A stretch of DNA of 64,000 bases from Desulfobacula toluolica Tol2 (lineage in GTDB: Bacteria; Desulfobacterota; Desulfobacteria; Desulfobacterales; Desulfobacteraceae). Both the position numbers and the translations under genes were made by a program. Below the pieces are notes generated by a model that worked only from the letters and a program-made list of their open reading frames with translations, was not told the origin of the DNA and searched no databases. Below, one piece after another: positions 57,801 through 59,329 of this stretch; within the stretch, counting starts at the first letter, position 1; the number at the start of each line of letters is the position of its first letter. The stretch spans positions 3,854,001 to 3,918,000 of the forward strand of contig NC_018645.1 of the NCBI RefSeq assembly GCF_000307105.1. The letters are read 5' to 3'.

Positions 57801-59329
57801 GCAATGCCTTGTTCATCTGCAAAATCCAGAACTCCCATCTGACCGATGGCCACAATAACGGTATCAGCTTCATAGCAAGTTAATTTACAATCATCATACT
57901 GGGGATTAAACCTGCCGTTTTCATCAAATACAGAGGTACATTCCTGGAACTCAACTTCACCTACTTTTCCGTTGGCTTCAATAAACCTTATGGGTCCAAG
58001 GCTATTGATAATTTTAACCTTTTCTTCAATAGCCTCTTCAATCTCATAATCCCAGGCCGGCATTTCATCCCGCTTTTCAAGACAGACCATGGTAACATCA
58101 TCAGAGCCAAGCCTTCTGGCTGTCAAGGCAACGTCAACCGCCACATTACCGCCTCCGATAACCATGACCTTGCCGGTCAGTTTTTCGGCTGTGCCAAGTG
58201 CTGCATCCCTCAAGAATTCAACCCCCTTGATCACGCCGTCAAGGTCTTCGCCCTTGACTCCCAACCCGCGGGAACCATGGAGACCTGTGGCCATAAACAA
58301 GGCGCTGTACCCGTCTTTTTTAAGACTTTCCAAGGTCACATCCCTGCCGAATTCAACCGAAGTTTGGATCTCAACACCAAGTTTTTCAATAACGTCAATT
58401 TCTTTTGCCAACTCAGCCTTGGGCAGACGGTATTCAGGTATACCAACAGCCATCATGCCGCCCTTGACCGGCAGTTTTTCAAATATGGTAACGGTATACC
58501 CCTTTTGCGCCATATAATAAGCCGTGGTAAGGCCTGCAGGCCCGGAACCGACAATAGCCACTTTTTCATCCCGCTTCTCTTCAACCTCAGGAATATACGG
58601 ATCATCTTCTTCAAAATCCAGTTCAGCCAGATACCGGTGAAGGTACTGGATGGCCAGGGGTTCGTCCGCATCCCCTCTTGTACAAACCGCTTCACAGGGA
58701 TGGTGACAGACACGGCCACAGGAACCGGGAAAAGGATGTTCTTGTTTGAACAGCTTAAGCGCTTGGGCATAATTGCCCTGATTCATCAAAGCGATAAATC
58801 CCTGGATACTCACATGAGCCGGACAAGTTGCCTTACAAGGGGCAGTAGATCTTTTGGAAATCCCATATGCACCCGGTATGGCTTGTTCGTATTGTTTAAA
58901 GACAGCTTTTCGCGGTGCAAGCCCCTGGTTGTGTTCACTGGGCACTTCCACAGGGCACACCTTGGCGCATTCCCCACATGACGTACATTTCAACAAATCA
59001 ACAAACCTTGGATTTTCTTTCACCCTTGCAGTAAAATTTCCTTCTTGGCCATCAACCTCAAGAAGTTCCGTATTTGTCAACAATTCGATGTTCAGATGCC
59101 GGCCGACCTCGACCAGTTTAGGTGAAATCACTCACATTGTGCAGTCGTTGGTCGGAAATGTCTTATCCAGCCGTGCCATCATACCACCAATGGCATATGA
59201 TTTTTCAACCAGGTACACATAATACCCTGAATTGGCCAAATCAATTGCAGACTGCATTCCTGCGATTCCACCGCCAAGAACCATGACAGAACCTGAAATA
59301 TCTTTCTGTGGTGTTGAATCTTGAGTCAT
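54881..59329 (-). CDS. hdrA: HdrA-type flavin/iron-sulfur protein fused to a GltD-like domain, selenoprotein
   Basis: 1482 residues read through the UGA at 59132-59134 (residue 66): [22 protein letters not shown] matches the HdrA active-site segment where Cys or Sec binds the bridging cluster. Order: FAD-binding start [15 protein letters not shown] (about 14-28); ferredoxin [12 protein letters not shown] (about 115); GltD/NfnB-like part with [11 protein letters not shown] (about 256) and [15 protein letters not shown] (about 386); [17 protein letters not shown] (about 626); a second HdrA-like half ([25 protein letters not shown]); C-terminal 2x[4Fe-4S] [12 protein letters not shown] and [12 protein letters not shown]. 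It probably bifurcates or confurcates electrons between NAD(P)H, ferredoxin and MetVF via MvhD. Confidence 0.92.

Follow-up and report, generated by a model that had tools for sequence, protein, structure and literature searches.

Does the in-frame UGA of the hdrA gene of the marine sulfate reducer Desulfobacula toluolica Tol2 end translation after 65 codons, or is it read as selenocysteine (Sec)? In the window, by which we mean the whole 64-kb stretch of DNA analysed, the minus strand runs from ATG 59329-59327 through ...TFPTNDCTM to TGA 59134-59132 and goes on with GTG ATT TCA CCT AAA (VISPK), all in one frame, which closes at the TGA stop 54881-54883. The sequence-only reading had reported this UGA, with the frame kept beyond it, and our examination of the minus strand confirmed both points, giving a read-through product of 1482 aa. 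It had also expected gene finders to split the gene, and under the standard code the frame did fall into two ORFs, one of 65 aa and one of 1416 aa with GTG 59131 as its start. The range that it gave, 58881-59329, holds the N-terminal part of hdrA; the gene itself occupies 54881-59329 and its operon 52800-59329. The Sec reading would correct the gene model, which is cut in two under the standard code. The features of hdrA are as follows.

54881 to 59329, minus strand: hdrA read-through gene, 1482 codons plus stop, encoding an HdrA-GltD-HdrA fusion.
59337 to 59342, minus strand: Shine-Dalgarno sequence AGGAGG before the hdrA ATG at 59329.
59132 to 59134, minus strand: in-frame UGA of hdrA, predicted Sec66, in the CxxU motif DCTMU.
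59099 to 59116, minus strand: predicted SECIS hairpin CUGGUCG-AGGU-CGGCCGG, 7 bp, 16-33 nt after the UGA.

If the UGA were a true stop, translation could restart at GTG 59131 and yield two products, a peptide of 65 aa and a protein of 1416 aa. A GTG does follow the UGA directly in the window, but only 16 of the 30 orthologues had GTG at this place, the others having GTT (eight), GTA (three) or GTC (three), whereas ATG with AGGAG upstream was found at the hdrA start in 29 of the 30, the exception being a locus without ATG at the equivalent codon (L090). Moreover, purifying selection on the shared frame was strong over the 60 codons upstream of the UGA (median dN/dS 0.056, 29 of 29 pairs) and equal to that found downstream (median 0.056, in the 24 of 29 pairs with finite dS). 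Homology to HdrA was unbroken on both sides of the UGA (residues 16-159 in the alignment with chain 5odc_A), and homologues were continuous across the site, with Cys at it. A restart at the GTG is therefore highly improbable.

The UGA was present at the identical codon in all 30 close orthologues fetched (the D. toluolica gene and 29 others), which came from separate assemblies, showing that its position is not due to chance. We also scanned named genomes, where at least 570 relatives were confirmed. Among the best 80 of these, the codon at the site was TGA in 76, TGC in two and TGT in two; in one locus (L161) the upstream sequence was too short to give the preceding residues, and the TGA could be read. 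The two sets overlap (for instance, the contigs of L116 and L066 are equally long, at 2,416,792 bases), and so they are not independent. Within the family, some HdrA match was obtained in each of 86 genomes; 55 of them had a match of 80-99% identity, always with one TGA inside, and the other 31 had weaker matches only, the next matches reaching at most 68% identity among the matches listed. The expectation that homologues would carry either Cys or Sec here was thus borne out, the UGA taking the place of the homologues' Cys in the CxxU motif.

These data also bear on the idea that the locus is a pseudogene, contains a sequencing error, or reflects a general reassignment or leaky read-through of UGA, for which nothing speaks beyond the stop itself. 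A pseudogene or a sequencing error is excluded because the UGA is conserved, in 30 of 30 orthologues and at a dN/dS that indicates a functional constraint on the frame (0.056, as above). A general reassignment is difficult to reconcile with the fact that hdrA itself ends in UGA, overlapping the start of mvhD, and with Cys at the site in homologues; the Sec machinery encoded in the genome argues in the same direction. Taken together, we consider explanations of this kind even less probable than a restart at the GTG.

A bacterial SECIS is expected to be a hairpin just downstream of the UGA, with a G in its apical loop. The folding of the sequence after the UGA, suggested by the sequence-only reading, yielded a SECIS-like hairpin that was synonymously frozen, with G in its apical loop AGGU (23-26 nt after the hdrA UGA). 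When the 30 orthologues were compared, 104 codon columns around the UGA were degenerate and invariant in amino acid; ten of them used a single codon, and eight of these ten were consecutive (+5 to +12) and lay over the hairpin. A run of at least eight single-codon columns was not obtained in any of 200,000 permutations of column order. In the best 80 of at least 570 relatives, the hairpin was identical in 72 of the 76 UGA loci and had one change in the other four, as against 2, 5, 6 and 6 changes of 18 bases in the four Cys loci. Three of these four Cys loci had one amino-acid difference inside the hairpin (LVEAGR for LVEVGR), and therefore the changes there are not all synonymous.

Folding energies gave results of differing strength. 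The 9-codon hairpin segment was more stable than its synonymous shuffles (z -3.53; 28 of 5000 shuffles were as stable), the 18 codons after the UGA showed a modest effect (z -1.78), and the 66 nt around the UGA showed no gain in stability over dinucleotide shuffles (z -0.40). The hairpin ranked 16th in energy of the 1464 9-codon windows in the hdrA gene, with 15 other windows above it. No covariation was detected among the orthologues, the hairpin being invariant. Given its conservation in UGA loci against its alteration in Cys loci, the hairpin at 59099-59116 is the predicted SECIS, and from its position 16-33 nt downstream it would direct Sec insertion at the hdrA UGA. As a SECIS it would be unusually clean, with eight consecutive synonymously frozen codons in 30 orthologues and a hairpin common to several Sec paralogues.

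All four components of the Sec machinery whose search had been proposed, selA, selB, selC and selD, were present in the genome. The selA match scored 605.6 bits; selB scored 358.7 bits, with the full model covered; and selD, which has its own in-frame TGA, scored 360 bits (L026, G000:C1:2134729-2135649). The tRNA-Sec scored 76.5 bits, above the cut-off, and ARAGORN assigned it the anticodon tca (UCA). Since matches to tRNA-Sec were obtained in all 14 control genomes, although above the cut-off in only five, the cut-off and the ARAGORN call are what matter here. The cut-off was exceeded in 25 of 30 relatives. With these components, SelB and tRNA-Sec would decode the hdrA UGA as Sec66, and we infer that selenium is inserted at this position.

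Downstream of hdrA, three further genes complete an operon in which a second in-frame UGA was found.

52800 to 59329, minus strand: operon hdrA-mvhD-metV-metF.
54438 to 54884, minus strand: mvhD (FlpD family), 148 codons plus stop, with predicted Sec17.
54834 to 54836, minus strand: second in-frame UGA, in the MvhD motif FCCNFU (CxxU), TGA in 19 of 19 loci.
54807 to 54821, minus strand: codons +5 to +9 after the mvhD UGA, GCG GAC CTG GCA GGT, synonymously frozen in 19 of 19 loci.
53729 to 54397, minus strand: metV (DUF5981, methylene-tetrahydrofolate reductase C terminal, PF12225).
52800 to 53732, minus strand: metF (methylenetetrahydrofolate reductase).

The mvhD gene overlaps hdrA (its start and the hdrA stop share ATGA), and its UGA had been missed by the sequence-only reading. 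Under the standard code the MvhD ORF starts at ATG 54803, 27 codons late and without its N-terminus; reading upstream through TGA 54836-54834 gave FCCNFUGYSAAD from ATG 54884, adding a second predicted selenoprotein to the operon. This UGA was found in 19 of 19 loci, namely the window and 18 relatives, selected from 29 as those with contigs reaching far enough, and in each it was followed by metV and metF motifs. The frozen segment at 54807-54821 is a probable SECIS; it was no more stable than its synonymous shuffles (z -0.37). Among the best 80 of at least 570 relatives, the MvhD motif was found in 54 of the 76 UGA-hdrA loci, as TGA in 53 and as a Cys codon in one (L184), the remaining 22 loci being too short. 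In the four Cys-hdrA loci, mvhD had TGA in three (L189-L191) and a Cys codon in one. These exceptions suggest that the Sec positions of hdrA and mvhD are coupled mostly, but not strictly.

Together, the frame, the conserved UGA, the hairpin, the Sec machinery and the operon make it very probable that the UGA at 59132-59134 is decoded as Sec66 by SelB and tRNA-Sec in a hairpin-directed manner, giving a single selenoprotein of 1482 aa that is encoded with Sec-containing MvhD, MetV and MetF.

Read-through UGAs flanked by C at -3 or +3 were sought throughout the window, within length limits, and numbered six: those of hdrA and mvhD, and those at 23058, 21868, 17078 and 60190. The translation across the UGA at 23058 resembled no gene when judged by eye. 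The window also contains a cobalamin riboswitch (11262-11447, minus strand, 117 bits). Elsewhere in the genome, one MvhD paralogue (L055, G000:C1:1369770-1370138) had two in-frame UGAs, at the CTWU and GGUH positions, and two others (L050 and L053) had UGA at the second (GGUH) position only, while an MvhD-like domain (L064, G000:C1:1025177-1025509) had an internal TAA near its end.

The genome itself gave 29 HdrA-like matches, and the best 14, which were examined, comprised six with UGA, seven with Cys and one (L042) without the motif. Four Sec paralogues (L031, L033, L034 and L035) had the exact 18-base hairpin of 59099-59116; its presence in diverged Sec-HdrA paralogues suggests strong constraint or gene conversion. 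A fifth (L036) had a hairpin of different sequence, likewise of 7 bp and with a loop of four bases, placed about 5 nt farther downstream, and the hairpin was not formed in the Cys paralogues examined. L034 (at about 456 kb) and L035 (at about 5160 kb) are Sec-HdrA loci that nearly duplicate each other, with 3302 of 3423 positions equal, and their MvhD neighbours (L059 and L060) had an identical reading in the stretch shown.

One of the Cys paralogues, L030, is 66% identical in this region and has an open frame of 1482 aa, with a UGA-containing MvhD (L056) about 4 kb further on. It raises the possibility of a conditional read-through, in which hdrA would give the selenoprotein when selenium is present and a truncated product under limitation, with a Cys paralogue such as L030 taking over. 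A replacement of this kind under selenium limitation is suggested for Desulfobacterium autotrophicum, by analogy with Methanococcus voltae, in the available text of PMC2702500. However, since L056, the MvhD of L030, has a UGA of its own, the L030 complex would not be selenium-free, and we regard such switching as rather unlikely. It is compatible with the decoding of the UGA as Sec66, not opposed to it.

The architecture of the protein bears on the role that Sec66 would have. Residues 16-159, 631-841, 925-1091 and 1308-1478 aligned with HdrA chain 5odc_A (whole-sequence E 2.3e-177), and residues ~160-565, which matched the Fer4_20, Pyr_redox_2 and NADPH-dependent glutamate synthase models, corresponded to a GltD-like module for FAD and NAD(P)H. 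The protein is thus made of two fused HdrA units, the first of which carries the GltD module as an insertion. The best NCBIfam model was NF040770 HdrA2 (946.6 bits, E 9.9e-285), the cut-off of this model, 1100 bits, not being reached. Unit 1 consists of an FAD domain with an inserted ferredoxin, split by the GltD-like module; unit 2 has an N-terminal Fe-S domain and a C-terminal ferredoxin. In the alignment with 5odc_A, residue 66 fell on the second Cys of that chain's DCxxC motif, which is residue 197 as counted from the alignment. In another HdrA chain of the PDB, 9sfi_A, the residue at this position is given as X, presumably Sec, and thus a structure with a non-standard residue at this site exists.

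According to the portions of PMC9012536 available, the N-terminal [4Fe-4S] cluster of an HdrA receives Cys197 of its partner HdrA as a ligand, and in tandem or fused HdrAs the losses of Cys197 and of the N-terminal domain are complementary, a pattern which the Moorella HdrA follows. The same was observed here: unit 1 has the Sec codon and lacks the N-terminal domain, whereas unit 2 keeps C934, C936, C969 and C994 in its N-terminal domain and, being free of Cys at 1068-1165, lacks a Cys197 of its own. The sequence-only reading had placed the UGA where Cys or Sec ligates an active-site cluster. Its Cys/Sec position in HdrA stands, as the alignment with Cys197 indicates; the term active-site cluster is inaccurate, Cys197 being a ligand of the partner's N-terminal cluster, and heterodisulfide reduction being catalysed by HdrB, which holds the active site (PMC5109826, as excerpted). 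From this complementarity we infer that Sec66 replaces Cys197, so that its selenolate would complete the N-terminal [4Fe-4S] cluster of unit 2 within the same chain. It is plausible, and on balance somewhat favoured, that the selenolate is a direct ligand of this cluster, joining the halves of the pseudo-dimer and tuning the low-potential branch of a bifurcating methylene-THF reductase.

The bifurcation signature Glu/Lys, E356/K409 in M. thermolithotrophicus according to part of PMC9430772, corresponded to E695/K749 in unit 1; unit 2 was ambiguous, with K1241 and, by direct alignment, S1201, but E1199 two residues earlier. In the same partial source, the set of HdrA, MvhD and MetVF is the Hdr-type methylene-THF reductase, an enzyme which was proposed in Moorella and has been investigated in Sporomusa. 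Here hdrA, mvhD, metV and metF form one cluster, with the motifs present in 18 of 18 relatives. An hdrB gene in the cluster, as in Moorella, was not found: CCG domains of the HdrB type numbered zero in the 64-kb window and 32 in the genome. In Thermacetogenium phaeum, too, only hdrA lies beside metVF, without hdrBC in the cluster, in the text available from PMC6895022. By flavin-based electron bifurcation or confurcation, the complex would couple methyl- and methylene-tetrahydrofolate to ferredoxin and NAD(P), and its probable direction would be methyl-THF oxidation if the host is, as it appears, a completely oxidising sulfate reducer. The Sporomusa MetVF core did not co-purify with the Hdr-like subunits and showed weaker interactions only (PMC9430772, in the part cited), so that a stable complex should not be taken for granted here. 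If selenium is inserted, this sulfate reducer would depend on selenium for the methyl branch of its one-carbon metabolism.

Sec-HdrA, Sec-MvhD, Sec-containing Hdr/GltD fusions and the Moorella HdrA-MvhD-MetVF cluster are already published. HdrA and FrhD/MvhD are long-known selenoprotein families of Deltaproteobacteria and Moorella (PMC1794560 and PMC13188914, in the parts available), and the text seen of PMC12054007 describes an HdrA lost to gene prediction in Methanocaldococcus owing to Sec codons. In the literature searched, no description of this individual hdrA was found; one may be given in the paper on the D. toluolica genome (Wohlbrand et al. 2013).

The likeness to Desulfobacterium autotrophicum HRM2 is by description: the portion of PMC2702500 consulted reports HdrL1 and HdrL3 as Sec-containing Hdr/glutamate-synthase fusions, each HdrL followed by an MvhD, and four MvhD proteins with Sec. 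There, HdrL1 is followed by dsr genes and other loci have fdh genes, whereas here metV-metF follow. In Desulfococcus multivorans, hdrA (dmul_C02770/80) and mvhD (dmul_C28840/50) have a UGA upstream of a SECIS and paired locus tags, but lie at different loci and not in one operon as here (PMC5109826, in part). The Sec-HdrA of Methanococcales and Asgard archaea likewise has CxxU in HdrA, with hdrA adjoining frhD; their SECIS elements are located in 3'-UTRs, in contrast with the bacterial type found here, in the coding region after the UGA (parts of PMC13188914 and PMC11227280). The ANME HdrA fusions have their halves in the order opposite to that of the present fusion, which matches the complementary pattern of fused HdrAs (both from the PMC9012536 text available).

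A close resemblance is also seen to the Moorella HdrA. As far as the sources seen describe it, its numbering extends to 1487, its unit with ferredoxin and TrxR-like parts is interrupted by GltD and its second unit lacks the inserted ferredoxin, as here, and its bifurcation signature E696/K750 corresponds to E695/K749 in our protein. The Moorella operon also contains hdrB and hdrC, in contrast with the window, where HdrB-type CCG domains are absent. Moorella selenoproteins include HdrA and FrhD in the part available of PMC1794560, and the HdrA listed may be another copy.
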